A DNA stretch of 21,983 nt, from positions 1-21,983 of the IMG/VR virus record IMGVR_UViG_3300047392_000254. The stretch is one strand, 5' to 3'. The stretch's first letter is position 1. Each line of letters opens with the position of its first letter. The stretch is from a virus. The translations under genes were made by a program, and so were the position numbers. Below the pieces are notes generated by a model. The model saw only the letters and a list, made by a program, of their open reading frames with translations, had not been told where the DNA came from and did not search any database. Below are positions 3,220 through 21,983 of the stretch, piece by piece.

Positions 3220-3668
3220 TATACTTCTTCCAGTGCAATACTTACATCCCAAAATAACTGAGCTGTGTCAGTTGCATTTGCTTTTACATTTCTTTTTATA
3301 ATATTAAATGAACAGGATGTGAAGCTTGCTACAAAATCTTCTGTCCTGGAAGAATTATAGGCTATTCTTACATTAAATGAACCTTGTCCTTTAGCACTTA
3401 AATAAAATGCCTTTATATCTTCCGCTCCCCAGCCCCCATCAACCGTCATAGTCGAGTATGAGGGCACCATAGACCAGGAGGTGGACACGTTCTTCTTATC
3501 GGCTATAAACAGCTTTCTAAGGCTTCCATTGGCCATTCTAGTACTTTGCTCAATGCGTTGTACATCTACTGATATTGGAGATCTATTATGCTCAGTTAAT
3601 TTTTGCCATGTGCCAGCTGCGTCCTGTATAAACAGGGCGGAACCTACGGGCAATGCTAAAGCTGTCAT
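3219..3668 (-). CDS. Distal-tail-like small tail protein
   Basis: A 149-residue protein between the tape measure and the tail hub. Its ATG overlaps the tape-measure stop as TAATG, and its own stop overlaps the hub ATG in the same way, so the three are probably translationally coupled. There is no signal peptide or membrane segment. The sequence is beta-rich with a core RMANGSLRKLFIADKKNVS, a glycine-tryptophan turn (VDGGWGAEDIKAFYLS) and a C-terminal strand QLFWDVSIALEEV. In siphoviruses this position usually holds the distal tail protein, which forms the ring joining the tube to the hub. The small size suggests a minimal tube-fold version rather than a full Dit with a galectin domain. Function rests mainly on position and fold impression, not on a recognised family signature. 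Confidence 0.65.
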   Translation of the reverse strand: MTALALPVGSALFIQDAAGTWQKLTEHNRSPISVDVQRIEQSTRMANGSLRKLFIADKKNVSTSWSMVPSYSTMTVDGGWGAEDIKAFYLSAKGQGSFNVRIAYNSSRTEDFVASFTSCSFNIIKRNVKANATDTAQLFWDVSIALEEV

Positions 3669-6600
3669 TAGATACTCTTTCCTTGTCCAACCATTTTAAC
3701 ATTAACCTTGGCCTTTTGTCCAATAACCACTTCGGCTTTCTTTACAATCATATTTGACAATGCTTCTACATCCATTCCTTCAGAAGCGTAAATAGTCTGA
3801 TTTACAACATATGAAGAACCTGAAACTCCGCCATCCTTTAAGCTATATTGAGCTTTGTTAAAATTATATCGTGGGGATGCAGCAGCTAATGTATTCATGA
3901 CATCATTTGGCATAATATTAGCACGATCTTTTAGGTGTATAAGCTCTGGCCCCTTTTCTCCAACAAGGAACATTCCCTTACCGCCCATAACTCCAGTAGC
4001 AGCTTTTTTAATTGCCTTTGTCCCGACTTTTCCTGTAGCTTGGTCATAGCTATATATTAAACCAGTCGCAGTATCTGATGCATAAGTTTTGTTATTCCAT
4101 TGAAATAACTCTCCATTAAATCCAGTCTCTGTGATTATTTTTTTGCTTTGTCCTTGAGAAAGAACATTTTTATAAGCAGAGTAAACATCTTTGCCTTTGC
4201 CAGTTAAAACATCTTTGCCAAATACTGTGGAATTAGATGTGCTAGTTGGTTTGCCATTTTGCTTATTAACTGCATTTACAATATCTTGAAGAGTTGCTCC
4301 ACCCTTAATGCTATTTGCTGCCGCTTCATCTACGCCTGTGCCAGCCTTAGAATCTGAAAGTATTTTAATTGCATTTTGTTGTGGAGATATAGGAACTTTT
4401 TTACCGTTCTTATCTGTTGTATATCTGTCCATCTTTTTGCCAGTTGCGGCTTCGTAAGCAGCAACTAACCCAGCTGCGGCTTCTTTATTTTTTGTAGCAT
4501 ACTCTTCGACTGATACTCCAGCAATTTTAGCATTTGCATAAAGAGCAGTCATTGAATTATTTACTTTATCAATTGCTGCTTGCTGTGTGTCATATTTAGC
4601 TTTTATCTTATCCAAGCTTTCGCTAGCCAAGGCTGCGCTATCTGAAAGTTTTTGCTGCTTATTGCTCATTGCTTCAACTGCAGCTTTAAGTGGCGCATTT
4701 GCAGCTTCATTGGCCTTGTCAATTGCTCTCATTTGAGCGTCTGTTTGCTGTTGAGAAGTTAATGACTCTAAATCAATTCTTAATGATTGAGCTTTTGCTG
4801 TATCTCCAGTAGCTGAAGCATTTTGCATTTCAAGTCTAGTTTTTTCAATCTGTCTTCCTAGATCTGCATCAGCTTGAGATGCGGCTAAAGCTTTCTTTCT
4901 AGCTTCCGCAAGTTTATTATTTGCCTCAATTTGTTTATTTAATGCAGCAAGCCTATCTCTATCTGAAATCTGCTGTGCGACTGTCTGACCCTTAATTGCC
5001 TTAGTATAAGAAGCAATTTGTCCCTTTAATTTATCTAAATTAGCATACTGTTCTTTTAGCATTCCAGTTCTATTAGTTGCTTGAACAGAAGCGCTTACAG
5101 AAGAAAATATTGCAGCTACAGTTTTAGTAGTTTCTGCATCTAATTTAGAAAGGTCCCCCTTATATCCAAGCGCTTCAAGTCTTATTTTTTGCCATACACT
5201 AATTAAAGTGTCAGTACCATTAATTATCTTTTTAACTTGTGGATTAGTTTTTGCTAACTCATCAACAGTCTCTTGAGTAATCTTTGTTCCAGCTTCTTTT
5301 GAGTTATTAAGCCTATCAAGCATCATCTTTTCAGCTTCTGTATAGCTTAATGATTTGACTTTGCCAGTAGTATCTTTAGCAACAAGTCTTTCTCGTTTTG
5401 CAATTAAATCATTGATGCCAGTTTCAGTAGCCATTAATGCTGTATTAAGTGATGCAGCTCTTTCTTTACTGCCCTCATTTTTTGTAGATTGTCCAAAGCT
5501 GGAGACAGCAGACACTGCCGCTGTCTGTGAATCTGTAATAGCTTTAAACTTAGAGTTACCCATTGTCGCAGTAATTGACTGATCTTTTTTATTTGAAAGT
5601 CTTAGCATTGTATAAACTTTTTTAGTTGCTTCATCAGCAGACATTCCTGCTGCTATAAGCTGTTCTTTAATTCTACGAACTGCATCGGGGACCTTAGTAG
5701 ATGGCTGACGGTTTAATGCTTTAATTTGTTCCCCAAATGTTTCTTTAACTTCAACCTTTAGCTTCTTGTATTCTGCAATAGTCATTTTGAACGGTGTCCC
5801 ACCATCCTTCATACTTTCATAAGTGAGCTTATTTGCAGCTTGCAGATCTCTTGCATCCTGTATAGCATCTTTCATCTTTGAGCCAAAATCAGTAAATCTT
5901 ACTCCAGCCTTTTTAGCTGCTTCTGCTGTCATTCCAAATGTAGATATATTTAAGGTCTGTCCTTCTTTATAATGCTTCCACATTTTGTATCCAGCAATTC
6001 CAGCCAACGTTACTGCAGCTAGTGGTGCAACTAATCCAGCTGCTGCTGCGGCTGTAGCACCAAATCCTGCTGTGGCCATACCTGATGCAGCAGCGCTTGC
6101 TGCTGCACGAGTAGCGATTGCTTTTCCAAGTGAGGCTGCGACTTGTGGGCCAGCCATCGAACCAGCAATACTACCCATCATTGCGCCATTTTGACCACCA
6201 AGCTTTGCGCCAAGGGCTGTACCCACAGCCATTCCTCCAACAGTTCCAATTGTGCTTCCAACAGCACCTTTACCAAAGGTAAATCCATTTTCATCTTGTC
6301 TTGTAATAGCTGGCAAAATATTTCTATTTCTTAAATACTGAACTGGGTGTAACATATTTGAAGTTGTGTATCTAGCATTTGCGCCAAAGTTTTGAGCAAG
6401 GGTAGCTTCTCCAAATGCTCCTGGCTTTACTGCTGCTGGGCTTGCACCCCAGCCCTTAATGTATGAACCAAAATCTTTTACTTTACCAGCAGCAATTTTA
6501 CCAGTATTCATAAGAACAGTTCCAACTTTTTTACTTTCTGTTCCTAAATAGTTTACTCCAGACTTTATATCTTGAGCTACCATCTTTGATCCAGTAACCA

Positions 6601-9600
6601 TTTGCTGTCCAGAATATTTTAGAGCTTCTTTTGACTTAAGCAATTCAGACTTAACTTTATCAGCATCATCTTTTATGCTTGTGCCTAAAGCATAAATTGA
6701 CATTCCTATTTGCTGTCCAGCTGACTTTAAAAGAGCTTCTGTTTTATTTAATGTAGCATGCCCAATTGTTAAGCCTGGTGCATACGGCAAAGATCCCTGT
6801 GCGGAATATACATTAGTTCTGACTCCGCCATTTCCAACTATTGTTGATCTTCCTACAGATAATGGACCATCAACATATTGTGGCTGTGTAATATCTGCTG
6901 GTGTAAATGCAGCAGCACGTGCTGCTTTAGCTGCTGCGGCAGCTGCTGCTTTAGCTGGGTTTCCACTAACTCCATATGCTCTTTTAGCACGACTGATTAG
7001 CCCACCAATTTCATAAGAAGGTATTATACCTCCAGAGTTTTTAGGAACAAATAGCTCTGGGCCTTTTTCTCCAACAAGGTACGGCCTACCAGCATTAACT
7101 GGACCACCATGTTCACGAGCAGCGTCTACAACTGCCTGTAACTTTAATTTATTTTTACTTGCAGCAACAATTCTAAATTTACCGCCCATATAAACTTCAC
7201 TCTCATTTACTGGGACTGGGCCTTGTGCTGAATGGAATGTTAAATCTGGAAAAATTTCAGAAGCTGGTACTGCATTTCTATTTTTAACAGATGCAACCAT
7301 CTGCAACTGCCCAAATCCTTCAGCTGTATCTGGGTTCTTGCTCCATGAAGAACGGCGCATAATAAATTCTTTACCAACAAGGTCTTCCCATTTGCCTTGT
7401 TGAATAAGAGTACTAATTGATGCAGGCAAAGAGTTAATGTTTCTAACACCTCTATGCAAAGTTCCGCTAAATTTAGTTCTAAGTGTTGATAAATATGTTT
7501 GTACTGCTGGATCATTAATTGCGCTATAGTCGCCCTGCATATAATTATAAAGAGCTGTCTTTGCTCTTGTTTCTAATGTTCCAGTTTCAAATGCTGTGAT
7601 CGCACCCTCACGCTTTGGTATATAGCTTATCTTACCAGCATTTGGTCCTCTATCATTTGAGTATGGATAGTAGCTTCCTCTGTATCTAATTTTTGGTGCA
7701 ACATATTGATTACGAACATGCATAGCTGGTTGGAATTTACCAATTTGAAGTACACCATGTGCTGGATCCGTATTGCCTAAGTTTTTAATCTTTTCATTTC
7801 TAATAATCCATGAAGGAAGTTGTCCATAATTCTTTTTACTTCTATTTATAAGCCCGCCAATTGCTCCACCCATATTAAAGAATGAAATGCCAGAATCTGT
7901 TGCAATAACACTTGAGCCAGATCCTCTAATACCAGAACCTCTTAAAGTACCAACCTGGCTCATCTCATCATAAAAATTAGCAGCTGTATTTGGGACTTTA
8001 AGTTTTCTTAAATTAGTTGATAAAATTTTACCAACAAACTCTTCAAACGTGTCAGTCTTTACACCAAATGGCTTTGTTCTATTTCTAAGGCCTTGCTGTA
8101 CTTGAGACCATGCATCATTAAATATTCTGTCTACATCTGCTTTAGGATATCCTAAAAGACCTGCAGCACTCTTCATAGTTGAAAATGGGTGTATTGGTGA
8201 TCCATTTAAAGACTTCAGTATTGTTCTTGGATCCCCACCAGAATTAAGTGAAAGATTTCCTCCAGCACCATATCTAGGCTGAGGGCCTAATAAGCCTGGA
8301 CTTACATATTGACCATTTTCATTTCTAGCAATAGCTGGGGCAAAGTGACTTCTATCTACACCCTTCCAAATTGCATTTACATCTGCAGCAGGAAGCGCCT
8401 CTAATTCTTTTAATGTATATTTTGAGCCATCAGGCTTATTGATTTTCCAGCCAGAGTTATGACTTGTAATTAAATCCATTCTTCTAGCATTGGCATCCGC
8501 ACCAGTTGCTGTTGAATAATAATGTCTAGGAAGTCTATTACCTCTTATTAAAGCGGTTCTTCTACTTGCTGCTTTGGACCATGATCCAGAGAACATTTGC
8601 AGAATTTGCTGTGCAGATGGTCTGCCACCGTAAGATGATCTTGAAAGCTTGATGCTACCACCAGCGGCATGGTGTGGAAGTGGAGTGCCATTATTTGCAG
8701 CATGGACTGCATCAAAAAGAGCTGGATTATCTTGTATGCCTGGTCCAAATACTGTTTCTTTTGGAGTAAGCATAGCAGTAATTTCTCCACCACTATTTTT
8801 ATATGTTGATGGTGCTGCTGCAACTAGTGCTGCATTTCTAGGGTCTAATGATGCTGCTTGATTTAAAACATACCCGCCAACTGGCACTGTACCTAATCTG
8901 TCATCATAGCTAATTGATGCTGGACCAGATACCTGAGTTTTATTTGCTCCGAATGACTCTACCTTACCACCAGTATTATATTTTCTAGGAATTGTTGTAT
9001 GCATGCTATATCCAGCACCAGATGTTCTAACTCCTAATTGACGTGCTATTGTATCTACTAGTTTTGATGTTTCAGTTTTATGAAAAAGCTCTTTCATATT
9101 TGACTTACCAGTGGCACTTACAACTGGTTGAGTTGTTAATGGAACAGTAGTAAGATTTACAGATCTTGCTTGAGTTGCTGCTACAGCAGATGCTGTTTGA
9201 GCCATCATTGATTCTATTTTAGCATTCAATGTAAATATCTTTGCTCTAGCGCCATCTACTGTTAACTTGCCAACTTCTAGCTCTTTAACAATTAGCGCAG
9301 CTTCATCTGCAGCTAAGGATGTAATTTGTGTCATCTTTGGAAGCAAAGCCTGGTAAGAATCGGCCAAAGATGCAGTTATAGTTCCTGTCGCAGCTACTTC
9401 TGTTTTTAATGTTGCTAATTCTGCTTTTGACTGCATAGCAATTGCCGCTGTCATTGAGTGCCACTTAGCAGCTTCGCTAGCTACAATTCCAGTAGATACA
9501 CCATTTACTGATGTTATACCTGGTATCTTTGGCATATCATTATTCATATAAACTTGAGGAGCGTTAGATATTCTTTGATTTACTGGTTTTGGTCCTGGGA

Positions 9601-11689
9601 CAGTTGAAAAAATTGTTTCGTTTGCTCTTTGTTCTGCAGTCTTTGATCCTGTTGGGATAAGGTGAGACATGTCTCTAGAGTATGGCTGACCAACCAATGG
9701 ATTATTTTTATCTACAATTCTTCCTCCGCCTGGAAGCACTGTATTACCAGCAACTGTAGACATGCTATTAGCCGTAGCAACTGTTGAGCTCATTGCATTT
9801 TGCTTTAGCTTTTCAAATGACGCTGCGAGTGTAAGTACGGCATCTGAGAATGTTGCTGCAGCTTTGGTGTCATTATAGAATGATTCTTCAACTGTATTAG
9901 CAGCTGCTGAAGCAGCCATTAACTCAGGAGTTAATAACTTAAATCCTGTACCACCCTTACCAATATTCTTTAACGCAAATATACCCTTGATAATATAACC
10001 AAAGAAGTTTGCAAGCACACCAGTAAGCATAATGATTGGGCCAGCAATTGCTGTAAGCCCTCCAATAAATCCTAGCACTGCTTTAATTGGTGCTGGCAAA
10101 TGCCCAATAAATTTAACTATTCCATCAATTGCATTTAATACAAATGTTCCAACTTTTAAGAATTGCTCTCCAATAGTTACAAGATCTGCTTTTACAGATT
10201 CTAAAGCTCTCTTATATTTACCAGAAGCTGACTCTGTCATGGTCTTTAATTCTCGTGCAGATATATTAGCTAAATCTGTAGTGCTTGCTTTCATCAAGTC
10301 AAGGACCTGAAGTGTTTGGCTTCCTTGCTTTCCTAAATTCTCAAATAGAGCATTCATTCTTGCAAACTGGAACTTACCAAATAGTTGCTCAATTGCTTTT
10401 GCTCTATTTAGTGGATCTAAAGTATCTAATGAATCTTTAAGGGCCATTATAGTGCCAGTTAAATTACCAGCATTTTTTGTAACAATTCCGCCTAAATCAA
10501 TTCCAAGTCCGCTAAACATATCTTTGGCAACTTTAGTTGGGTTGATAATAGATGCTAATGCAGATTTTAGTGCGTTAGCACCTTCAGAAGCGTTAATACC
10601 ACCTTCACGCATTGCTGTTAAATAAAGCGCTAAATCTTTTACGTCTCCGCCTAATGCTTTTACTACTGGACCAGCTTTAGGAATTGCTTCTACTAAATCC
10701 TGCAAGCTTGTTGATGTCTGGTTTTCAACTGCGTTTAAGAAGTCAATTGATTGAGCGAGCTGTTGTGTATTTTGACCAAAGGCTGTTTGAATAGATAGTG
10801 TAGCTTTCATGGCTTCTTGTCTATCAACTTCACCAAGCACCGCAAGTCTGGTTGTTTCTCTAGTGGAATTTAAAAGATCATTACCTTGCTTTCCAGTTGC
10901 AGCAATGTCTGCAGCAAGTGCAATTGTATCATTGACATTAGCGCCAAGTCCAGAGGCAAGTTCTCTTGATAAAGCAGAAACATCTTTTCTTACCTGCAAT
11001 AAATCTGCTGTAGATGTTGCTGTTAGTCCGCCATAAACCTTTGTAAGTCTAGTTAGTTCTTGATCTGCCTGCTGAAATGCTTTTGCCGCTGCCATTCCAA
11101 ATGCTGCAATTGGAACTGTCAAACCAACGGTAAGCTGTCTACCAGCCCACTGAGTATTTTTACCCCAATTGATTAATTGACCAGCGCCATCACTCATGAC
11201 CTTGTTCATGATAGAAAGTTCTTGTCTTAACAGAGCAGATTTATTTTTTGTTCCGTCTAGTCCAGATTGAACCATGACATTGTATTGCATTAAGCCCTGA
11301 GCATTTTTGCCAAGTGGCTGCACTATTGCATTTTCTAAAGCTACTTGCTGCTTAGCTAATTCTTTTACTAATGAGCCAGTCTTTTTTGTATGGTCTTGCC
11401 AGGTCCTAAAATAATCACCAAGCTTCATCCTACCGCTGTCTAAGTTTTGCCCAAACTTAGTTACATCAGATGTTAGAGTTACAAAGTGTCTGGCAAACTG
11501 GCCAGTGGAGCGCATGGTTTCGTCAAACTGACGATTCATGACTCCAACTTGGCTAGTCAGGTTTTTATTTAAACCAATTGTTGTTGCCTGAAGTTTTAAG
11601 AGTTGCGAAGTAACGGACTGTAACTGCGCTGTAAGACTATTAAAATTAGCCGTTGCAGTTATATTCGTTACTATATTTTGTTCTGACAA
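3668..11689 (-). CDS. Tape-measure protein (TP901-type) with embedded ADP-ribosyltransferase domain
   Basis: A very large tail protein (2673 aa) that sets tail length and may enter the host during infection. It starts at a TTG 6 nt after an AAGGAG ribosome site; the chaperone gene stops 4 bp upstream. Residues about 20-130 are helical, followed by a TP901-like core at about 180-420 (GRQLTVGLTVPIAAFGMAAA). A hydrophobic membrane-like stretch lies at about 530-570 and a Gly/Ala-rich glycine-zipper region at about 1805-1905. Long coiled-coil helices run from about 2210 to 2400. Linker motifs typical of tape measures occur near 973 (TAMLTPKETVFGP), 1540 (LVGEKGPELFVP) and 2570 (LVGEKGPELIHL). Between the first two lies an insert of roughly 500 residues containing an R-S-E-type ADP-ribosyltransferase domain (R1413, S1447-S1450, E1496/E1498). 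At about 1.5 angstrom per residue, a fully helical ruler would imply a tail near 400 nm, but the globular insert probably does not count. Confidence 0.95.
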   Translation of the reverse strand: MSEQNIVTNITATANFNSLTAQLQSVTSQLLKLQATTIGLNKNLTSQVGVMNRQFDETMRSTGQFARHFVTLTSDVTKFGQNLDSGRMKLGDYFRTWQDHTKKTGSLVKELAKQQVALENAIVQPLGKNAQGLMQYNVMVQSGLDGTKNKSALLRQELSIMNKVMSDGAGQLINWGKNTQWAGRQLTVGLTVPIAAFGMAAAKAFQQADQELTRLTKVYGGLTATSTADLLQVRKDVSALSRELASGLGANVNDTIALAADIAATGKQGNDLLNSTRETTRLAVLGEVDRQEAMKATLSIQTAFGQNTQQLAQSIDFLNAVENQTSTSLQDLVEAIPKAGPVVKALGGDVKDLALYLTAMREGGINASEGANALKSALASIINPTKVAKDMFSGLGIDLGGIVTKNAGNLTGTIMALKDSLDTLDPLNRAKAIEQLFGKFQFARMNALFENLGKQGSQTLQVLDLMKASTTDLANISARELKTMTESASGKYKRALESVKADLVTIGEQFLKVGTFVLNAIDGIVKFIGHLPAPIKAVLGFIGGLTAIAGPIIMLTGVLANFFGYIIKGIFALKNIGKGGTGFKLLTPELMAASAAANTVEESFYNDTKAAATFSDAVLTLAASFEKLKQNAMSSTVATANSMSTVAGNTVLPGGGRIVDKNNPLVGQPYSRDMSHLIPTGSKTAEQRANETIFSTVPGPKPVNQRISNAPQVYMNNDMPKIPGITSVNGVSTGIVASEAAKWHSMTAAIAMQSKAELATLKTEVAATGTITASLADSYQALLPKMTQITSLAADEAALIVKELEVGKLTVDGARAKIFTLNAKIESMMAQTASAVAATQARSVNLTTVPLTTQPVVSATGKSNMKELFHKTETSKLVDTIARQLGVRTSGAGYSMHTTIPRKYNTGGKVESFGANKTQVSGPASISYDDRLGTVPVGGYVLNQAASLDPRNAALVAAAPSTYKNSGGEITAMLTPKETVFGPGIQDNPALFDAVHAANNGTPLPHHAAGGSIKLSRSSYGGRPSAQQILQMFSGSWSKAASRRTALIRGNRLPRHYYSTATGADANARRMDLITSHNSGWKINKPDGSKYTLKELEALPAADVNAIWKGVDRSHFAPAIARNENGQYVSPGLLGPQPRYGAGGNLSLNSGGDPRTILKSLNGSPIHPFSTMKSAAGLLGYPKADVDRIFNDAWSQVQQGLRNRTKPFGVKTDTFEEFVGKILSTNLRKLKVPNTAANFYDEMSQVGTLRGSGIRGSGSSVIATDSGISFFNMGGAIGGLINRSKKNYGQLPSWIIRNEKIKNLGNTDPAHGVLQIGKFQPAMHVRNQYVAPKIRYRGSYYPYSNDRGPNAGKISYIPKREGAITAFETGTLETRAKTALYNYMQGDYSAINDPAVQTYLSTLRTKFSGTLHRGVRNINSLPASISTLIQQGKWEDLVGKEFIMRRSSWSKNPDTAEGFGQLQMVASVKNRNAVPASEIFPDLTFHSAQGPVPVNESEVYMGGKFRIVAASKNKLKLQAVVDAAREHGGPVNAGRPYLVGEKGPELFVPKNSGGIIPSYEIGGLISRAKRAYGVSGNPAKAAAAAAAKAARAAAFTPADITQPQYVDGPLSVGRSTIVGNGGVRTNVYSAQGSLPYAPGLTIGHATLNKTEALLKSAGQQIGMSIYALGTSIKDDADKVKSELLKSKEALKYSGQQMVTGSKMVAQDIKSGVNYLGTESKKVGTVLMNTGKIAAGKVKDFGSYIKGWGASPAAVKPGAFGEATLAQNFGANARYTTSNMLHPVQYLRNRNILPAITRQDENGFTFGKGAVGSTIGTVGGMAVGTALGAKLGGQNGAMMGSIAGSMAGPQVAASLGKAIATRAAASAAASGMATAGFGATAAAAAGLVAPLAAVTLAGIAGYKMWKHYKEGQTLNISTFGMTAEAAKKAGVRFTDFGSKMKDAIQDARDLQAANKLTYESMKDGGTPFKMTIAEYKKLKVEVKETFGEQIKALNRQPSTKVPDAVRRIKEQLIAAGMSADEATKKVYTMLRLSNKKDQSITATMGNSKFKAITDSQTAAVSAVSSFGQSTKNEGSKERAASLNTALMATETGINDLIAKRERLVAKDTTGKVKSLSYTEAEKMMLDRLNNSKEAGTKITQETVDELAKTNPQVKKIINGTDTLISVWQKIRLEALGYKGDLSKLDAETTKTVAAIFSSVSASVQATNRTGMLKEQYANLDKLKGQIASYTKAIKGQTVAQQISDRDRLAALNKQIEANNKLAEARKKALAASQADADLGRQIEKTRLEMQNASATGDTAKAQSLRIDLESLTSQQQTDAQMRAIDKANEAANAPLKAAVEAMSNKQQKLSDSAALASESLDKIKAKYDTQQAAIDKVNNSMTALYANAKIAGVSVEEYATKNKEAAAGLVAAYEAATGKKMDRYTTDKNGKKVPISPQQNAIKILSDSKAGTGVDEAAANSIKGGATLQDIVNAVNKQNGKPTSTSNSTVFGKDVLTGKGKDVYSAYKNVLSQGQSKKIITETGFNGELFQWNNKTYASDTATGLIYSYDQATGKVGTKAIKKAATGVMGGKGMFLVGEKGPELIHLKDRANIMPNDVMNTLAAASPRYNFNKAQYSLKDGGVSGSSYVVNQTIYASEGMDVEALSNMIVKKAEVVIGQKAKVNVKMVGQGKSI
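7145..7612 (-). other. Predicted ADP-ribosyltransferase domain inside the tape-measure protein
   Basis: Encodes about residues 1360-1515 of the tape measure. Three motifs occur in the order seen in R-S-E-type ADP-ribosyltransferases (the VIP2, iota-toxin and C3-like families). The helix ALYNYMQGDYSAIN (1379-1392) precedes strand LHRGVR with R1413. GKEFIMRRSSWSKNPDTAEGF carries SSWS (1447-1450) at the STS position and the following Ala-x-x-Phe helix. FHSAQGPVPVNESEVYMGG carries E1496 and E1498 in ExE form, and KFRIV follows. The gaps (about 35 from R to S, 46 from S to E) are reasonable for the fold. ExE suggests arginine-type modification. The motifs are direct observation; the fold assignment is inference from family knowledge. 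The target is unknown. Confidence 0.72.
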
Positions 11690-11692
11690 CTC

Positions 11693-12351
11693 TTACTCCT
11701 TTTTGTATCCGAGTCCAGCTCCGATACCAAATCCTGCTTCTGAAGCAAACTGACCTTGTAATGAAACAACATCAGACGGATCTGTAGTTATTCCAAGAGC
11801 TCTTCTTCTTACATCTTCAAAGCTCTTGCTTTCTTCTTGTACTCCACCCTCAAGTTCTACTCCTTGAATGGAGGCCAGAAATTTTCTTTTTTCTGTTTCA
11901 GTCTTTTGCATTGCTGAGAAGGTTTGAATCAACTCTGGCATTGAAAGACTATCTTCAAGCTCTTCGTAATTCTTATAGTTTCCTATTAGAAATACTTCTC
12001 CTTCTAGTGCAGCTAGATCTAGTTCTGACCAGCTAGAACCGCTGCCGCTAGCAAATTTGGATCATCCATCTTAATTCCGCCACAAACCTCAAGAATTCGG
12101 TTAATTGTTGGAACATCGAGTACGTCCTCAAATGCATCTCTATCTGCTACCAAATCTGGAAGCTGCTTTTCAAGTGCTACTGCACAAGCATCAATAAGGA
12201 TAGTTAGGGTTTCATCTTCTGTAGTAACTTCTGCTGTCTTTGCAATAGCTGCCATAAACTTGCGAAGCTCTTTAATTGTTAAAGGCTTAAGCTTTACGTT
12301 TGCGCCATTCTGTAGTTGAATCTCTTCTACATCATATACTGTTGTTGCCAA
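11693..12351 (-). CDS. Tail-assembly chaperone GT fusion made by -1 frameshift
   Basis: The 110-aa G frame and the downstream T frame are in the -1 relation. The T frame is open from inside the end of G to its stop at 11693, and its ATG at 11941 is only internal. Slippage on A AAT TTG (12052-12058) joins G residues 1-100 (ending DDPNL) to 119 T-frame residues (starting ASGSGSSWSELD), giving a 219-aa fusion. The T part includes NYKNYEELEDSLS and ends in GFGIGAGLGYKKE. In lambda-like tails, G and GT bind the tape measure and recruit tube subunits; they are not in the virion. The position between the MTP and the tape measure is the standard one. No ribosome site was found that would favour independent T translation. 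Confidence 0.85.
11696..11701 (-). promoter_or_regulatory. Ribosome binding site deciding the TTG start of the tape measure
   Basis: AAGGAG (inside the last codons of the T frame) stands six nt before TTG at 11689. The upstream stop lies between them, so the chaperone and tape measure are probably coupled. Confidence 0.8.
12009..12058 (-). promoter_or_regulatory. -1 ribosomal frameshift signal of the tail chaperone
   Basis: On the minus strand the G-frame codons CCA AAT TTG contain the X XXY YYZ heptamer AAATTTG (12052-12058). Six nt later a possible stimulatory structure begins: GCAGC (12041-12045) can pair with GCTGC (12009-12013). An inner stem GTTCT/AGAAC (12035-12039 with 12022-12026) lies within it. 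After slippage the -1 frame is fully open through to the T part. The heptamer and frames are directly seen; the RNA fold is judged by eye. Confidence 0.8.
12019..12351 (-). CDS. Tail-assembly chaperone G
   Basis: A 110-aa helical acidic protein made without frameshifting. The start is TTG at 12351, six nt after a strong AGGAGG (12358-12363); no ATG or GTG fits better in this frame. The N-terminal strand-turn (VEEIQLQNGANVKLKPLTIKE) followed by helices is typical of phage chaperones that coat the tape measure during tail assembly. It is the first gene after the terminator-promoter unit that follows the MTP, so its level may be uncoupled from that of the MTP. The slippery codons lie 10 residues before its stop. 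Confidence 0.85.
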   Translation of the reverse strand: MATTVYDVEEIQLQNGANVKLKPLTIKELRKFMAAIAKTAEVTTEDETLTILIDACAVALEKQLPDLVADRDAFEDVLDVPTINRILEVCGGIKMDDPNLLAAAVLAGQN

Positions 12352-12357
12352 TTTAAT

Positions 12358-12363
12358 CCTCCT
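12358..12363 (-). promoter_or_regulatory. Ribosome binding site AGGAGG deciding the TTG start of G
   Basis: AGGAGG followed by the six bases ATTAAA and then TTG. The excellent match and spacing justify a TTG start at 12351 despite the lack of ATG. Confidence 0.85.
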
Positions 12364-12380
12364 AGGATATTCTCTTAATT

Positions 12381-12409
12381 ATTGTATCATATCACAAATA
12401 CCAATACAA
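12381..12409 (-). promoter_or_regulatory. Extended -10 promoter driving the tail-assembly genes
   Basis: On the minus strand: -35-like TTGTAT (12404-12409), a 17-nt spacer ending in TGA, then TACAAT (12381-12386), a TGn-type extended -10. It lies just downstream of the MTP terminator and 30 bp upstream of the G start. Start would be near 12374, giving a short leader with AGGAGG. Confidence 0.65.
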
Positions 12410-12416
12410 TAGAAAA

Positions 12417-12438
12417 CCCCCCTAATTTCTTAGGGGGG
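12417..12438 (-). terminator. Rho-independent terminator after the major tail protein
   Basis: A perfect 9-bp stem CCCCCCTAA/TTAGGGGGG closes a GAAA (GNRA-type) tetraloop on the minus-strand RNA and is followed by UUUUCU. It lies 25 bp after the MTP stop. The U run exists only on the minus-strand side in this orientation. Strong by eye. Confidence 0.9.
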
Positions 12439-12462: not shown

Positions 12463-13149
12463 TTAGATAGCAAGGACACGGTCTACGATAAATCCGTATT
12501 CCTGTCCTGCGTTTGCTGAATCACCTGATGGAAGCAAACGGAATGTAACTGGGAATGTTGATGCTGCGTTACGAGCCAAAGAGAACTGTGACTGCTGTAC
12601 AGAAAGAACACGACGTGCATAGTATACACGCTCAGTTGCTGTTGCTTCAGATGTTGGTGCCTGGCCTACTGCAATAAGCTGACGCTCTGTTGGAGCTTCG
12701 CCAAGTGCACCACCAGCAAGACCGAGCTTATCGGTTGCTGTAAGGCCTGTGCCTGCTGAAGAAAGTGTTGTTGAACGCTGACCGAATACAGCAAGAACGT
12801 TCTCAAGAGTTCCTTCTGCCATTTCTGTTGCGATCATAACTTCCATTGACTCCTTGAAAAGCTTTGCTGTATCAAGAAGCTGATCTACTGTTACTGAACC
12901 GTATGATGGGTTGTATGTAACCTGAAGACCGTTGTTTGTGTAACCTACGTTACGGTATCCGAACTCTCCAGCTGTCTGGTCGATGTCGTTAAGTGTATTT
13001 GTAAAAGATACTCCAGACTCATAAGCGTAATCGCCTTGACCTGGCTCTGCGTTAGCTACGTATCCTGATGTTGTTACGTCAATGTTTGAAATAAACAATG
13101 GTGACGCACCAACGAGAATATTTTTAGCATTACCTACGTTTTGTGCCAT
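12463..13149 (-). CDS. Major tail (tube) protein
   Basis: A 228-aa soluble beta-rich protein just before the chaperone genes, the conserved place of the tail-tube subunit. The N-terminus NAKNILVGASPLFISN and the later FTNTLNDIDQ and VTYNPSYGSVTVDQ are typical of siphovirus tube proteins. The final strand, VTFRLLPSGDSANAGQEYGF, fits tube packing. The start ATG has GGAGG nine nt upstream (13159-13163). Arginine codons are almost all CGT, unlike the AGA-rich tape measure, consistent with very high expression. It is followed by a strong terminator, so much of the transcript may end here. There is no appended Ig domain, so this is a plain tube subunit. Confidence 0.9.
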   Translation of the reverse strand: MAQNVGNAKNILVGASPLFISNIDVTTSGYVANAEPGQGDYAYESGVSFTNTLNDIDQTAGEFGYRNVGYTNNGLQVTYNPSYGSVTVDQLLDTAKLFKESMEVMIATEMAEGTLENVLAVFGQRSTTLSSAGTGLTATDKLGLAGGALGEAPTERQLIAVGQAPTSEATATERVYYARRVLSVQQSQFSLARNAASTFPVTFRLLPSGDSANAGQEYGFIVDRVLAI

Positions 13150-13187: not shown

Positions 13188-13204
13188 GACTTACTATAAA
13201 TCAA
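13176..13204 (-). promoter_or_regulatory. Possible promoter upstream of the major tail protein
   Basis: In the 114-bp gap before the MTP, the minus strand has TTGATT (13199-13204), a 17-nt spacer and TATATA (13176-13181) within an AT repeat, with the ribosome site about 13 nt downstream. An alternative TTGCCT-17-TAAACT lies further upstream in the same gap. Neither is strong, but the gap is the largest in the window and precedes an abundant protein. Confidence 0.35.
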
Positions 13205-13263
13205 GCTGGCTAGGCTCATTTCCTCTTGGTATAAGTTTATCTTACAATCAACTAAAAGGCAAA

Positions 13264-16410: not shown

Positions 16411-16439
16411 ATTATAGCATTGTATAATTAAAATGAAAA
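16411..16439 (-). promoter_or_regulatory. Extended -10 promoter for connector and tail genes
   Basis: On the minus strand: TTTTCA (16434-16439), a 17-nt spacer ending in TGC, then a perfect TATAAT (16411-16416). The -35 box begins inside the U-run of the MCP terminator. The 131-aa gene starts 27 bp after the -10, with AAGGAG in between. Confidence 0.8.
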
Positions 16440-16461
16440 GCCCCCAAAATTAATTGGGGGC
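16440..16461 (-). terminator. Rho-independent terminator after the major capsid protein
   Basis: On the minus strand an 8-bp stem GCCCCCAA/TTGGGGGC with a 6-nt loop is followed by UUUUC. It lies about 20 bp after the MCP stop. Terminator and promoter abut, forming a single punctuation unit. Confidence 0.88.
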
Positions 16462-16482
16462 CTTTCTTAGATTAATTCCTAA

Positions 16483-17532
16483 TTAGGAAGCAACCTTAAC
16501 GTTCTTAACAACTACCCAAGCATCTGCCTGCTCGATCTGAACGCCGACTCTTGTGTACATTGTGTACTCAATTGAGTCCTTGCGTGGCCAGAAGAAGCGG
16601 TAAACAGTTACATCACGCTTAACACCAATAACAACGTTATTTGGGAATGTCAAGTGGACGTCTCCGTGTGAACCTGTGGCCTGTGAGTAATCTCCAGCCT
16701 GTGTTTCTGGAAGTAGTGGAACTTCAACGATTGGAATACCAAATGCGTATGGTGCAACGTATCCTGCTGGGCCTGATACTGGTGCAACCTCACCACGGAT
16801 GATGCCAGAAGCAATATCCTGTGGGTTAACGTTCTGAATATTCTGTGATGTTGAGTATAGGTAATCCTGGATCAAGTTTGATCCTGCAAGGAAGCGGAGG
16901 TCTGTACGACGCTGCTTGTACTTACGTGGAAGTGCCTTAAGTGCAGAGTTAAATACTGCACGAGAAAGTCCTGCACCTGCTGCGTCAACTACGTGACCGT
17001 GTGCCTTAGACTTCTTGACTACACCGTCAAATGCCTTATAAAGTGCATCTGATGAAAGTGCTGTATCACCATTAAGAAGAACATCTTCGATGTCGTTTCC
17101 AGCCTGTGTTGCCATCATACGTGCGATGTGGTCTTCTAGATCTGGACCTTCGATGTTATCTTCTAGTGACTCTGTTGAGAGTTCCCAGTCGAGACGAAGC
17201 TTCTTTGTTGTGAGAGAAATCTTTGAGAATGTAACAGCTGCGTTTGATGCAGTGTTATCTCCTTCTGTAGCGAGCTTCATAAGCTTCTCGCCAATTCCGA
17301 CTCTGTCGATTTCTGTGGTGTCTGACTTCATTCTGACAGTACGTGCGACCTTACCAATTACGGTTGCGTCAAACATATAGTCTAGGAAGCGAGCAGACTG
17401 TTCTGGATTGAGGAGACCACCGTTGCCATTTTCTGACCCTACGTGTGTTCCTGTACCACCAGTTGTTGATGCGAAAGTACCTGTAGCTGTTGTTCCAGCT
17501 GCGATTGCTTTCTCTAATGTTTCATTGCTCAT
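16483..17532 (-). CDS. Major capsid protein (HK97 fold)
   Basis: A 349-aa capsid subunit that follows the protease-scaffold. The N-arm (first 45 residues, Gly/Thr/Ser-rich) leads to LNPEQSARFLDYMFDATVIG. An E-loop region LRLDWELSTESLEDNIEGPD and spine helix DLEDHIARMMATQAGNDIED follow, then FLAGSNLIQDYLY in the A-domain. GIPIVEVPLLPE and VGVQIEQADAWVVVKNVKVA form the P-domain and end. There is no long delta domain, in line with a separate scaffold on the protease. AGGTGA lies seven nt before the ATG. Arginine and lysine codons lean to CGT and AAG, unlike neighbours, as expected of the most abundant virion protein. A lysine-asparagine crosslink cannot be judged. Confidence 0.93.
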   Translation of the reverse strand: MSNETLEKAIAAGTTATGTFASTTGGTGTHVGSENGNGGLLNPEQSARFLDYMFDATVIGKVARTVRMKSDTTEIDRVGIGEKLMKLATEGDNTASNAAVTFSKISLTTKKLRLDWELSTESLEDNIEGPDLEDHIARMMATQAGNDIEDVLLNGDTALSSDALYKAFDGVVKKSKAHGHVVDAAGAGLSRAVFNSALKALPRKYKQRRTDLRFLAGSNLIQDYLYSTSQNIQNVNPQDIASGIIRGEVAPVSGPAGYVAPYAFGIPIVEVPLLPETQAGDYSQATGSHGDVHLTFPNNVVIGVKRDVTVYRFFWPRKDSIEYTMYTRVGVQIEQADAWVVVKNVKVAS

Positions 17533-18130: not shown

Positions 18131-18919
18131 TTCATTACCTCCTTGTACGTTTGCCTGTTTTGCTACGTTTTGTGTTGCAGGCAACGGAACTCTTGACTTC
18201 TTAAATGAAGCAAGAATCTTATCTATCTCTTTTGATTTGTTTATGTCTGAGCTTTCAACCCATCCAATTAGTGTAGCTTCTTTTCCAGTGACTGGAGAAG
18301 AATATGTTTTGTCTGTTGAGATAAAAACAGAATCGCTTTCTTCACAATAAAAAATATTTTCTGTAATGACATCTGCTGCCATGCCTTTAAATACTAGCTG
18401 GCCATTCATTTTTTCAATTGAAACAATGTTGCACATTTCGTTTGCTGGAGAATCTACAATAGACAATTCTACGAGATCATACTCTTTGATAAATCTAACT
18501 GCTTCTCCTGTTGCTTTGTTAACTTCATTGTCTGAATCTTTAATTTTCCCGCCAATTGAAAAACCAGAAAGAGTGCCATCAAGAACTTTTTCCCAAGTAT
18601 CTTGTGCACCCTTTGAAATGTAAGATGTAACATAAACTCCGTTATAAAATGTCTGAGACTTTTGATCGTAGTATGTTTCTGGCTTAAATGAAACAACTTT
18701 ACCAACAGCAAGAGGCTGATGCATCTCTCTTAGATTACCTCTAAAGTTTTCAAATGCTTTGATGCTTGCTTCTGCAGTAACAACATCTCCTGTTTGATCT
18801 ACATTGTCTAATGTAGCAAAACCAGAAACAGTTCTTTTCTCCCTATTCACTTTTGTGAAAGGGACAGCTAGATGGATGTTTTGGCCGTCGGAGGACCACT
18901 GAGCTTTTTCAATGTTCAT
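17549..18919 (-). CDS. Prohead protease-scaffold fusion
   Basis: A 456-aa protein that scaffolds and then cleaves the procapsid. Residues 1-170 are an S78/U35-type protease. The triad candidates are H67 in REMHQPLAVGKV, S121 in LSGFSIGGKI and E151 in VELSIVDSPAN, matching the HK97 order. Residues about 175-245 form an extra small domain (IFYCEESDSVFIS, TGKEATLIGWVE). Residues 265-335 are an acidic Ala/Glu-rich linker; 335-430 are a coiled coil typical of scaffolds (FFADTLSKATEA, QITELAEKHSALSAA). It ends in WNGSFLGSVNEIFN. The start is ATG with no ribosome site but a -10-like TAAAAT 7 nt upstream, suggesting a leaderless message. An internal GTG at residue 264 has its own strong ribosome site. 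Confidence 0.9.
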   Translation of the reverse strand: MNIEKAQWSSDGQNIHLAVPFTKVNREKRTVSGFATLDNVDQTGDVVTAEASIKAFENFRGNLREMHQPLAVGKVVSFKPETYYDQKSQTFYNGVYVTSYISKGAQDTWEKVLDGTLSGFSIGGKIKDSDNEVNKATGEAVRFIKEYDLVELSIVDSPANEMCNIVSIEKMNGQLVFKGMAADVITENIFYCEESDSVFISTDKTYSSPVTGKEATLIGWVESSDINKSKEIDKILASFKKSRVPLPATQNVAKQANVQGGNEVEKLNVHTEDSAVVEATPVAEAPAETEIVEETAAASDAPVVEDAPAADSAEDADSASVDVFKSVDAPQADAAVEVEEPDFAKMLVDLKGFFADTLSKATEANAVQVSEIKETVETFSKGVNAQITELAEKHSALSAAVTEIKSTIDGVQKRVDAVEGDTAIKKSSDLGGSLVATTTKSKWNGSFLGSVNEIFN

Positions 18920-18926
18920 ATGCTTA

Positions 18927-18955
18927 ATTTTATACGTGTCTATCTAAAAAAGCAA
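18927..18955 (-). promoter_or_regulatory. Possible promoter, leaderless protease-scaffold message
   Basis: On the minus strand: TTGCTT (18950-18955), 17-nt spacer, TAAAAT (18927-18932), then seven nt to the ATG at 18919. Transcription would start at or next to the ATG, and no ribosome site is present. The -35 is weak. Confidence 0.45.
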
Positions 18956-18972
18956 ATAGCAGTTGATTGGAT

Positions 18973-20556
18973 TTAGTCAACCCTTTTCCCGTCGCCTTTT
19001 GCATTTCTGCCTTCGCCGACTTTATCTGAAGAAGCAGCAGATCTCTGAGAATCCCTGGCTCTGGTTTTGCCTGCAGTTGCTTTTTGATCAGCTGCCTGCT
19101 GTGGCTTTAATTCAACCATTTCGTCCCCACCCTCAACAGGTATCATGCCTTTTTTAATTCTAACTTCATTTGGAGTAATTACCTGCATTCTTAGATATCT
19201 TTCATCTATTTGTGACTGAGTATCTTCGTCTGTAAGTGTAAGCTCCTCAAATTTAATTTTTAAAGCATCTGTCTTTTCTTCAATAATAGAATTAATTCTT
19301 TTTTCTAATCTCATTTGAGCTGGACGACAAACCTGCTCTTTAAATGTTTTGTCTGCATCTCTAGCATTTGCCAAAGAAACGCCTTCTGGAACGCCAATTT
19401 TATTAATTGGAACTCTGTGAGCTAAAAGTATTTCGTCTCTATTTGACTGTCTATAAATATTAAATGATGATTCTTGAGCACCAGCTTCAACTGGCTCCAT
19501 TTTAAATTCAACTTTATTATCTGGGGTATCAGCTGGAAGAGGAATATAAAGTGATCTATGATTCTTACCCTTTAAGCCAACCTGGAAAAATTCAAGAAGT
19601 TTTCTTTCTGACTCTGGTGAAAGCTTTGCGCCCTTAACTGTAATAATATATCTTGGGACCGCTTTATTTTCAAAGTAGTCTAGGTTATATCTTCCAGCAA
19701 ACTCATTACCAGCGAGTGCCATTTGAGCTGCCACAATATCTGGTATGCCATAATAATTATTCATAGGTGTATATTTTTTTAAATGAATAATTTCATTTGG
19801 TCTGTCTTCTACATCCCCAATTGGGTTAGGAGTTTCAGTATCTCCAAAATTTCTAAAAAATACAGCCTTGCCATAAAGAAGTTGCATAAACCCATCACGG
19901 AGTCTTCTCACACGCATTGTCTTGGCAGGGATATGCCCAATATACCCAATGTCTCCGCCAGTTGTTCTGCCTATTTCAATATAGCCATTTCCTGTTGCTT
20001 CTAAATCTGTATATACCTTGATCAACGTTTCTGTAAATGTATCTTCATCATTAGTTGAGTCCAACCAGTCTTGAAGATCTTGCTTAAGCTTATTTAATTT
20101 TCTACGAGCTCTTTCTAGTTGCTTATCATCTGTTATAGCATCTATAGCATCATTAGTTTTTCTTGTTTCCATAAATGAATATCCAAGACCAACAATGTTT
20201 GCTACCTTAGCATTAATAGCAGCATAGTTATATGTAGAAACTTCATAAATTTGTGATAGATATTCTAGATTATAAATTGGCTGAACAAGGTCGAACATTG
20301 CATAGCCAGTAACGGCTTGCTGCAAAAGGTTTTGTTGTGTAGCCGCACCATCTTTGCCAGTAAAAGATTTTGCAAAGTCTCTGTTGACTTTTCTTTTAAA
20401 GTTTGTGCCAAGCCCTCTTACTTTTTTAAGTTCGTCAATGCCTATTGCAAATGGATCAATATGTTCTTTTTCTTTTTTAAAAGAAAATAGGTCTGAACTA
20501 TTTTTTACAGAAACTTCATATGTATCTTCTGGCTCGTCTTCTAGAAACTGCGTCAT
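18973..20556 (-). CDS. Portal protein
   Basis: A 527-aa protein forming the dodecameric ring for DNA entry and exit. The pattern is that of PBSX/SPP1-type portals. It has an N-terminal helix region ending EVSTYNYAAINAKVANIVGL, and wing domain LIKVYTDLEATGNGYIEIGR with IPAKTMRVRRL. RPNEIIHLKKYTPMNNYYGI and PDIVAAQMALAGNEFAGRYN follow, then the stem region LLAHRVPINKIGVPEGVS. The tail is charged and low in complexity (about 485-527, KTRARDSQRSAASSDK). The ATG overlaps the previous stop as ATGA, with GGGGGAG upstream. Its place before the protease and MCP is standard. A distinct head-morphogenesis protein after the portal is absent. Confidence 0.92.
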   Translation of the reverse strand: MTQFLEDEPEDTYEVSVKNSSDLFSFKKEKEHIDPFAIGIDELKKVRGLGTNFKRKVNRDFAKSFTGKDGAATQQNLLQQAVTGYAMFDLVQPIYNLEYLSQIYEVSTYNYAAINAKVANIVGLGYSFMETRKTNDAIDAITDDKQLERARRKLNKLKQDLQDWLDSTNDEDTFTETLIKVYTDLEATGNGYIEIGRTTGGDIGYIGHIPAKTMRVRRLRDGFMQLLYGKAVFFRNFGDTETPNPIGDVEDRPNEIIHLKKYTPMNNYYGIPDIVAAQMALAGNEFAGRYNLDYFENKAVPRYIITVKGAKLSPESERKLLEFFQVGLKGKNHRSLYIPLPADTPDNKVEFKMEPVEAGAQESSFNIYRQSNRDEILLAHRVPINKIGVPEGVSLANARDADKTFKEQVCRPAQMRLEKRINSIIEEKTDALKIKFEELTLTDEDTQSQIDERYLRMQVITPNEVRIKKGMIPVEGGDEMVELKPQQAADQKATAGKTRARDSQRSAASSDKVGEGRNAKGDGKRVD

Positions 20557-20891
20557 TTGACAGCTCCCCCTCTTAATACTGAATCTTTATATTCGCCAAT
20601 ATCAAGTGGGTCTGGGGTTAGCCCCCACTTAAGTCTCTGGTTTTGATGCTCAAACTCTTCATCATCAATTTTTCTTCTACCAGACAAAAATTTAGGCTGA
20701 CCTTCATAAATGCCATAGTGTCTTACTGCATCTGCAAGGGCGGCCATTCTAGAACGATTGCCTTTTTTAGATGTTATAGAAAGAAAGTTACCATCGTCAT
20801 CGCCAATCCAGCGTCCATCTGGCATTTCCCATACGTAAATTCCGAGTGTTGTTTCCTCGATGATCTGACTTTTTTGATTTAAGATGTCCAT
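20553..20891 (-). CDS. Small conserved-type protein upstream of portal, function unknown
   Basis: A 112-aa acidic protein overlapping the portal ATG by four bases. It has GIYVWEMPDGRWIGDDDGNF (a strand-turn-strand with a Trp pair), KGNRSRMAALADAVRHYGIY and then RRKIDDEEFEHQNQRLKWGL. No catalytic motif is visible. It is the first gene of the block after the hairpin and promoter at 20901-20940. The ATG lacks a ribosome site and lies nine nt from the -10, so it is probably leaderless. Coupling to the portal suggests a head role, but I do not recognise the family. Confidence 0.6.
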   Translation of the reverse strand: MDILNQKSQIIEETTLGIYVWEMPDGRWIGDDDGNFLSITSKKGNRSRMAALADAVRHYGIYEGQPKFLSGRRKIDDEEFEHQNQRLKWGLTPDPLDIGEYKDSVLRGGAVK

Positions 20892-20900
20892 ATGTTAAAT

Positions 20901-20929
20901 AGTTTACCATTAGTATTGATAAAAGTCCA
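20901..20929 (-). promoter_or_regulatory. Promoter for the portal-head block
   Basis: On the minus strand: TGGACT (20924-20929), a 17-nt spacer ending in TGG, then TAAACT (20901-20906), an extended -10. The -35 is the 3' arm of the preceding hairpin. Nine bases separate the -10 from the ATG at 20891. Confidence 0.5.
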
Positions 20930-20940
20930 GTTTATGGACT
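20924..20940 (-). terminator. Likely terminator after the LamG-like gene
   Basis: On the minus strand AGTCCA/TGGACT forms a 6-bp stem with a 5-nt loop, followed by UUUAUC. It lies about 33 bp after the gene end. It is weaker than the other two. Confidence 0.55.
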
Positions 20941-20972
20941 AGGCAAATACAACTTTTAAAGATCTATGCACC

Positions 20973-21983
20973 CTACTCGTCCAAAGATCTCAAGAAATAC
21001 GGAGTTCCCGACAGACCAGTTGCACTTTCTGATATCTGAATTCTAGTTTCTTCAACGGAATATACGTTATCTGAGCAATAAAGGCTATAATTATCTTGCA
21101 CATCACTTAATGTAAATGGGTTTTCATAAAAAGCGATATTGCTATATGTATTATCCGTGCCATAATTTAGCCCATCTTGGCTTTGATTAAACTTTATATT
21201 TGTAGCTGCTGAATCCAATACCAATACTATATGGTGAAATATTTTATCTAATAAAAATGCAGATATATTTGTCGCATTTGTCCTATTAATACCATTTACA
21301 TATATTGCACTAATTCCATTTTTTGATATCACCCCGCTATCACTCCATTGAAAATAGGATGAGTCAGAGGAGTATAAAACATTTTTGCCAGCGCTTGGTG
21401 CAAATATCATCTCGACTGTTCTAGGGCTAATTGAAACATCTGCTGAAAACCCATGCCCTTCATACATCGAAAGCCCATTGTTTTTATTTTGCATTCTAAT
21501 TGGATAATTATAGTACCCTAAAGAATAATCATAATCTGAATAGATTCTGCCGCCTGAATTATCTGAATAAAAATCTTTGTTTGAGTACATATCAATTTCT
21601 AAGCTGTCAAAATATGGGAGATCAAATGATGAGTCCAGTGTTGTCATTGTAACTCTTATATCCAATATAGGACTACTTAAGTTTTGATTTTTGTTATAGT
21701 ATGGAAGGGGGTAATGATTCTTGCATACTACCCAATCTTCTCCTGGCACAGAAACCTCAACCATTATATTGTCTACATCTTGACCATAAGAAATTCTAGA
21801 TGAAACAATATTTTCTGGATTAGGTACATAAATTCTTTCTTCAAAGATAAAAGTTTTTTCTTCAACTGATTCTGTCTGCTCAAATTCAATTCTATTATAT
21901 TTTGAATTATAGTATGCATCCGCTACTACAATTTGGTCTAAAGATTTTATTCCAGGGTATCTATATGATATATCTGGCTTAAT
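20973..21983 (-). CDS. LamG/concanavalin-like structural protein, partial (N-terminus off right edge)
   Basis: The frame is open from the right edge to its stop, giving at least 336 residues; the ATG at 21764 is only internal, as 73 codons above it are open with no stop. The C-terminal 180 residues look like a LamG/concanavalin-type sandwich: MYEGHGFSADVSISPRT is followed by VEMIFAPSAGKNVLYSSDSS. Then come ISAIYVNGINRT, IFHHIVLVLDSAATNIKFNQ and the ending NIAFYENPFTLSDVQDNY. This fold is usual in phage appendages and fibres that bind sugars. It is upstream of the portal block and separated from it by a terminator, so it may belong to a different unit. The role as a surface appendage is inference. 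Confidence 0.7.
   Translation of the reverse strand: MKPDISYRYPGIKSLDQIVVADAYYNSKYNRIEFEQTESVEEKTFIFEERIYVPNPENIVSSRISYGQDVDNIMVEVSVPGEDWVVCKNHYPLPYYNKNQNLSSPILDIRVTMTTLDSSFDLPYFDSLEIDMYSNKDFYSDNSGGRIYSDYDYSLGYYNYPIRMQNKNNGLSMYEGHGFSADVSISPRTVEMIFAPSAGKNVLYSSDSSYFQWSDSGVISKNGISAIYVNGINRTNATNISAFLLDKIFHHIVLVLDSAATNIKFNQSQDGLNYGTDNTYSNIAFYENPFTLSDVQDNYSLYCSDNVYSVEETRIQISESATGLSGTPYFLRSLDE

Follow-up and report, generated by a model that had tools for sequence, protein, structure and literature searches.

The window analysed here is the whole 21,983-base stretch of the virus record IMGVR_UViG_3300047392_000254 (positions 1-21,983), whose minus strand carries, in this order, genes for the portal, the protease, the major capsid protein (MCP), connector genes, the major tail protein (MTP), the chaperones and the tape measure protein (Table 1). 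The identities of the chaperones and of the tape measure were assigned from their position and from the gene order of Faust. Close to the end of the first chaperone frame lies the heptamer AAATTTG, read in the frame A AAT TTG, from which a -1 shift leads into the second frame, as in the usual chaperone frameshift. Elsewhere in the window, -10-like elements that end 7-9 nt before an ATG suggest that the protease gene and 20553-20891 have leaderless mRNAs (minus strand, GTATAAAAT within 18917-18975 and TGGTAAACT within 20889-20975, respectively). Rfam models used at their gathering thresholds gave no match anywhere in the window, and a scan of genome contigs for a host-linked relative of the window virus matched 22 stretches, none of which was such a relative.

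Table 1. Position of the genes and of the observed or predicted control elements in the window.
Feature	Position	Strand	Basis and remarks
Tape measure protein gene	3668..11689	-	Size and position; order as in Faust
Second chaperone frame	11693..11941	-	Probably reached by a -1 frameshift at AAATTTG (12058-12052), as judged from the sequence
Tail assembly chaperone gene	12019..12351	-	By position; the gene after the MTP is so annotated in several isolates
Shine-Dalgarno-like AGGAGG before the chaperone TTG start	12358..12363	-	Sequence; seen in relatives
Extended -10, TGA-TACAAT	12381..12389	-	TACAAT itself at 12386-12381; 17-nt spacer to TTGTAT
-35-like TTGTAT	12404..12409	-	TTG at 17-nt spacing in relatives
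T-tract TTTTCTA, abutting the -35	12410..12416	-	Read from the sequence; T-rich tail in relatives
Intrinsic-terminator hairpin after the MTP	12417..12438	-	9 bp, GAAA loop; covaries in relatives
Major tail protein gene (MTP)	12463..13149	-	phrog_2175; homologues annotated as major tail protein
Conserved leader element (GAGGAA followed by a short stem with the loop CTAGCCA)	13203..13225	-	Alignment, covariation
Predicted -10 TAAACT of the MTP's own promoter	13234..13239	-	Sequence and relatives
Second terminator-promoter unit, after the MCP	16411..16466	-	Hairpin 16466-16435; -10 TATAAT 16416-16411 with TG
Major capsid protein gene (MCP)	16483..17532	-	phrog_1623, PF05065

Between the MTP and the chaperone and tape-measure genes the initial annotation had described a terminator-promoter unit, and all of its parts were found there, on the minus strand from 12438 to 12381. 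The stem-loop, CCCCCCTAA-GAAA-TTAGGGGGG, has 9 pairs and an energy of -16.5 kcal/mol, and directly 3' of the stem runs the T-tract, TTTTCTATT, which is interrupted, so that termination is perhaps partial. The -35-like hexamer is weak, matching TTGACA at 3 of 6 bases, and for this reason the promoter was absent from the list of a generic promoter scan; as it missed this promoter, that scan, which gave 44 promoter-like sites in the window and thus fewer than the shuffle mean of 56.6, was not relied on. The hairpin alone is ordinary for its own composition (z -1.71), since C-runs and G-runs pair readily, and the 65-nt stretch comprising hairpin and promoter is unusual for its composition (z -4.09). 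The score of the lone hairpin and the outcome of the generic scan are the two observations that favor pure chance, that is, an accidental pairing of runs rich in C and in G within a gap that is otherwise AT-rich, followed by a promoter match that is noise.

The capsid gene is followed by a second unit, in which the hairpin has 13 pairs and a 6-nt loop (z -4.86), the -10 reads TG-C-TATAAT, and the T-rich arm of the terminator itself occupies the -35 position. Given this different sequence, the 6-nt loop and the placement of the T-rich arm, the two units are not copies of each other, which bears out the earlier claim that the unit behind the tail gene is no duplication of the one behind the capsid gene. 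Upstream of the MCP gene the gap is only 16 nt in the window, and the MCP probably shares its transcript with the upstream genes.

Uncultured relatives came from two scans, each limited to its 80 best loci (out of 404 matches in one and at least 598 in the other), which over-represents close relatives; the sequences counted were these loci, the window and the window's own slice (L001). For the MTP, no downstream gene was found in 5 of 123 sequences; once these were removed, 118 sequences remained, whose gaps are of 72 distinct kinds. For the MCP, 3 of 154 were removed, and the 151 retained have gaps of 83 distinct kinds, in both cases among the matches listed. A hairpin, a T-rich tail and TACAAT or TATAAT were present in every distinct gap among the matches listed (72/72 for the MTP, 4 of them without TG, and 83/83 for the MCP), so the pair does recur behind both genes in relatives, as the initial annotation had proposed to check. 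Under a stricter rule with TG required, the pair was detected in 68/72 MTP and 83/83 MCP distinct gaps among the matches listed, compared to none of 1440 and none of 1660 dinucleotide shuffles, respectively; when TG was not required, the same rule gave 72/72 and 83/83 in the listed matches versus 4/1440 and 1/1660 in the shuffles. The extended -10 criterion for SigA/sigma-70 promoters, TG-N-TANNNT, likewise gave 68/72 and 83/83 among the matches listed. The hairpin with its T-tail, irrespective of a promoter, arose in 5/1440 (MTP) and 4/1660 (MCP) shuffles, and in a control with real sequence, the 115 nt before the MTP, the pair was found in 0 of 71 stretches among the matches listed.

With respect to the single elements, a TTG at -35 with a 17-nt spacer was located by script in 68/72 MTP gaps, and in the alignment of the 72 MTP gaps (A1) a TTG directly after the T-tract is invariant, whereas the -35 position of the MCP unit is taken by TTTTCA, part of the terminator arm, in 78/83 gaps (all among the matches listed). 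The nine nucleotides after the G-run of the MTP hairpin contain on average 6.2 T (69 of the 72 gaps could be parsed), and the T-rich tail after the MCP averages 6.0 of 9, some of these T pairing inside the stem, again among the matches listed. These tails bear on an alternative in which the hairpin serves mainly as an mRNA 3'-end stabiliser or processing site for the abundant tail and capsid mRNAs, with much read-through that the promoter would top up. Such a role would fit the interrupted T-tract, as well as the promoterless hairpins after the MCP in the Rhodococcus phage Francesca and in three of four phages of Proteobacteria, the latter judged by eye; nevertheless, a pure stabiliser needs no T-rich tail, and both the tails and the adjoining promoter have been kept, so we consider this alternative improbable.

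Covariation was scored among the matches listed. The MTP set consisted of 54 hairpins whose loop has 4 nt, 27 of them distinct (from the window and 53 of 71 relatives), and the MCP set of 68 hairpins whose loop has 6 nt, 18 of them distinct (from the window and 67 of 73 relatives); hairpins of other loop lengths were left out of these counts. Paired cells amounted to 99.6% in the MTP stem and 98.8% in the MCP stem, values that are partly built in, as the hairpins had been picked by a pairing search; the informative part is the changes on both sides of the stem, which were found in 7 of 9 pairs for the MTP and 5 of 9 for the MCP. The corresponding covariation scores were 0.613 for the MTP stem (0.203 shuffled; at most 0.179 with slid partners) and 0.432 for the MCP stem (0.123 shuffled; at most 0.099 slid). 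Conservation and covariation thus argue strongly against chance, which was rejected on the shuffle counts and on the covariation at both units and to which we assign a very small probability. Conservation above the shuffles, together with stem covariation, also upholds the earlier proposal that the arrangement has been selected.

Among cultured phages, a tblastn search against 50,697 phage records detected relatives of the MCP in 213 records and of the MTP in 132, of which 127 in each case were Streptomyces phages. The isolates examined comprised 11 Stanwilliamsviridae, among them BillNye and Circinus, whose gaps are the same, as well as four phages each of Rhodococcus and of Proteobacteria; for Coruscant and Jay2Jay, a later ATG than the annotated start was used for the gene after the MCP. 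In all 11 Stanwilliamsviridae isolates, each of the two gaps contains a hairpin with a T-rich arm or tail, together with a -10-like element. The sequences of their hairpins differ from those of the window, although stems of a C-run and a G-run closing GAAA recur after the MTP in Boydwoodruffvirinae. The extended -10s of the isolates include TGGTAAACT, TGATATAAT and others, and a few elements have no TG, namely those behind the MCP in BillNye and Circinus and the MTP promoter of Blueeyedbeauty, which is also farther off. The Rhodococcus phages were mixed: two of them, Trina and NiceHouse, carry the unit at both places, and in Weasels2 it was seen after the MCP, with a gap of only 16 nt after the annotated tail protein (NiceHouse and Weasels2 were judged by eye). 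Francesca has a hairpin without a promoter after the MCP, and after the MTP it lacks both a terminator-like hairpin and a promoter. In the four phages of Proteobacteria, with 26-29% identity in the MCP, inspection by eye revealed the hairpin in 3/4 and the promoter in 0/4.

A scan with the MTP of Faust gave 30 loci, of which 28 were examined, the matches at L222 and L230 being incomplete. Several of these records represent the same isolates; the loci contain 21 distinct gaps, one of them cut by a contig end, and in the remaining 20 a hairpin was seen by eye in all and a -10-like element in 19, that of L228 being doubtful. The promoter lies farther away in L204, L208, L209, L217 and L231. A scan based on Trina returned one locus only, 100% identical to Trina's own protein. 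An additional hairpin, T-rich stretch and TATAAT were observed 3' of the gene that follows the MCP in Boydwoodruffvirinae (L163, 5139-5196, and the equivalent gap in L188, L190, L191, L192 and L194), where the TATAAT ends 6 nt before the ATG and suggests a leaderless mRNA.

The distance from terminator to promoter was the tightest of the three gap intervals in the uncultured relatives. For the 72 MTP gaps the mean from loop centre to -10 was 40.8 (sd 0.86), and for the 83 MCP gaps it was 34.7 (sd 0.51), the flanking stop-to-loop and -10-to-start intervals having sds of 1.77 and 1.26 for the MTP and of 3.18 and 1.49 for the MCP, all among the matches listed. In the isolates, intervals were measured on a set of 11, with loop and -10 picked by hand and with Circinus (a duplicate) and Francesca left out. 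The TTG of the MTP unit lies at 16 nt in 9 of these 11, and the loop-to--10 distance after the MTP is 39-42 bp in nine of the 11 despite the different hairpin sequence; the distances in Trina and Blueeyedbeauty are 31 and 55.5, and with both included the loop-to--10 distance becomes the loosest interval of the 11 isolates (sd 5.49 versus 3.01 and 4.52). After the MCP, the spacing in promoter-bearing isolates ranges from 5 to 29 nt, and the idea of a fixed geometry throughout was rejected on account of this variation in the capsid units.

A nearly constant spacing in the uncultured relatives, and in most isolates after the MTP, would be in line with coupling, whereby the polymerase, once terminated, would remain bound to the DNA and start again at the neighbouring promoter, transcription of the MTP in this way feeding that of the chaperones. 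In single-molecule work, E. coli polymerase re-initiates after intrinsic termination at nearby downstream promoters in a distance-dependent manner (PMC6978380, PMC7957599, in the portions of these papers drawn on here), which makes a hand-over from terminator to promoter conceivable, and coupling to a nearby sense promoter is raised as a possible mechanism in the part of PMC6978322 consulted. However, that same part describes re-initiation as mostly antisense, sense events being rare (<2% of retained polymerases). Moreover, a T-tract (8), a -35 (6) and a spacer (16-17) packed together add up to about 30 bp anyway, and such dense packing might account for most of the constancy; the outlying distances of Trina and Blueeyedbeauty, the large isolate sd and the wide variation of the capsid units also stand against coupling, which we therefore think unlikely. 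A dedicated hand-over device, in which the terminator would pass a sigma-competent polymerase to the promoter and a set fraction of MTP transcription, feeding the chaperone and tape-measure genes, would fix the ratio of tail tube to assembly factors, appears to us similarly doubtful.

Upstream of the MTP, a -10-like hexamer lies 7-11 nt before the conserved GAGG of the leader element in 69 of 71 distinct gaps, compared to 38% at other positions, and the 7-nt loop CTAGCCA is invariant in the 71/71 distinct gaps of uncultured relatives (both among the matches listed). The loop is shared by 10 of the 11 Stanwilliamsviridae isolates, Coruscant having another loop, and by 17 of 20 further distinct sequences (not L225, L228 and L232). 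The leader element is thus common to uncultured relatives and Streptomyces phages (L162, L163, L164 and others), and it is not present in the Rhodococcus phages Trina, Francesca and NiceHouse. The leader stem covaries (score 0.638; 0.212 shuffled; at most 0.165 slid), although it was not predicted when the window's own stretch was folded alone. The predicted start of the MTP transcript falls at this element, which might serve as a protein-binding site or make the mRNA more stable; a resemblance of its loop to an anticodon loop (C and U, with A in the last position) is speculative. With the predicted promoter and the leader conserved, the MTP looks like a transcription unit of its own, in the window seemingly bracketed by this predicted promoter and leader on one side and by the terminator on the other.

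The distribution of such pairs over whole genomes was scanned on both strands of three uncultured genomes (113-120 kb) and Faust. A stricter rule missed the MTP unit of one uncultured genome (G001) and the MCP unit of Faust, at least partly owing to its treatment of G-T pairs, and another rule was used; a palindrome may count twice in the resulting total of 109 terminator-like hairpins. An extended -10 follows 14 of these hairpins, compared to 1.3-3.1% of random positions, and the MCP and MTP units account for 8 of the 14. Without the TG requirement, a -10-like hexamer follows 41 of the 109, only moderately above a background of 15-37%. The form with an extended promoter is thus uncommon and confined to particular places.

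Five of the other six pairs with an extended -10 belong to two recurring kinds. One was seen in each of the three uncultured genomes, following a gene whose product is a signal-peptide-like, Ala/Thr-rich protein of 338-362 aa (G001 43649 in L167, G003 84667 in L175 and G007 6354 in L177), the 362-aa form of which had no PHROGs or Pfam match at E 0.01. The other was observed in two uncultured genomes behind an apparent small RNA (G001 71205, minus strand, in L168; G003 57120, plus strand, in L173). This possible phage small RNA of about 80-90 nt is preceded by a promoter-like sequence of its own, and the loop of its terminator contains GGATCCGCCTCT, whose CCTC could pair with Shine-Dalgarno sites, and directly after it comes a promoter-like element for the downstream gene.

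We conclude that the arrangement is repeated and selected, as seen from its parts, position, conservation and covariation, and that the gap between MTP and chaperones is very probably a boundary between transcription units, in which a Rho-independent terminator has its T-tract abutting the -35 of a host-type promoter (SigA-like, with an extended -10). From these features we infer that transcription stops and starts there, how strongly, from which start point and to what end in dosage. Polymerase leaving the MTP would stop, completely or in part, on meeting the hairpin and T-tract, and a new round would begin roughly 35 bp past the release point, at the adjoining promoter, giving a transcript with a short leader and an AGGAGG site from which the tail chaperones and the tape measure would be expressed at their own rate. 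The MTP would thereby form a separate unit, its mRNA level uncoupled from that of the chaperones, and the MCP would end in an analogous unit of different sequence; a further likely benefit is that the stop shields the next promoter from read-through. MCP and MTP are usually the two most abundant virion proteins, and it is reasonable to suppose that the unit would isolate the abundant tail protein from the assembly factors, as the initial annotation had suggested; the conserved predicted promoter and leader ahead of the MTP strengthen this proposal.

Judged by comparison, this group of actinobacterial phages and their uncultured relatives appear to split the long late gene block into units, and boundaries behind the MCP and the MTP could allow these genes to be transcribed separately from those downstream. 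The two units are ready-made regulatory parts, and as the spacing after the MTP is mostly kept while the hairpin sequence changes, they offer a natural test bed in which to ask whether bacterial polymerase restarts after termination within a genome. If the hand-over were true, it would be a natural, selected case of post-termination re-initiation, a process which in the parts of the literature consulted has been studied chiefly in vitro with E. coli polymerase.

Early promoter-terminator pairs are known from phage phiC31. The parts described here are of known kinds, and it is their arrangement that is unusually well conserved; the addition is a tight terminator-promoter pair after both the MTP and the MCP, kept across the Stanwilliamsviridae checked and the uncultured relatives, no earlier report of which was found in the excerpts of open-licence PMC literature consulted. 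In the mycobacteriophage Corndog (Cluster O), a stem-loop terminator is predicted beside the major tail subunit gene (PMC4351075), yet section 7 of that paper describes no adjoining promoter for it. The late gene clusters of SPP1 are also delimited by potential stem-loop terminators, whereas no consensus late promoter related to PL1 was identified by the authors in the part of PMC6316719 used here. The structural genes of the mycobacteriophage L5, another actinobacterial phage, are ended by a stem-loop terminator, but its late transcripts apparently run from the left end to the region of genes 32-33 and are not divided into several units, according to the portion of PMC5712189 drawn on. There is also a likeness to the capsid module of the Pseudomonas phage LUZ100, likened to that of T7 in the section of PMC10134795 at hand, in which a terminator lies directly behind the major capsid gene, an abundant structural gene with a local promoter. 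In the window virus and its relatives, by comparison, a -10 is predicted before the MTP in 69/71 gaps among the matches listed, and in the window the gap upstream of the MCP is the short one noted above. The promoter of the LUZ100/T7 module, as described there, is one for a phage RNA polymerase, whereas those of the window virus look host-type, and Faust has no RNA polymerase gene among its annotated genes, as judged by annotation. Unlike the LUZ100/T7 module as described in that section, the window virus has a unit after the tail gene as well, and the next promoter is packed against the terminator.
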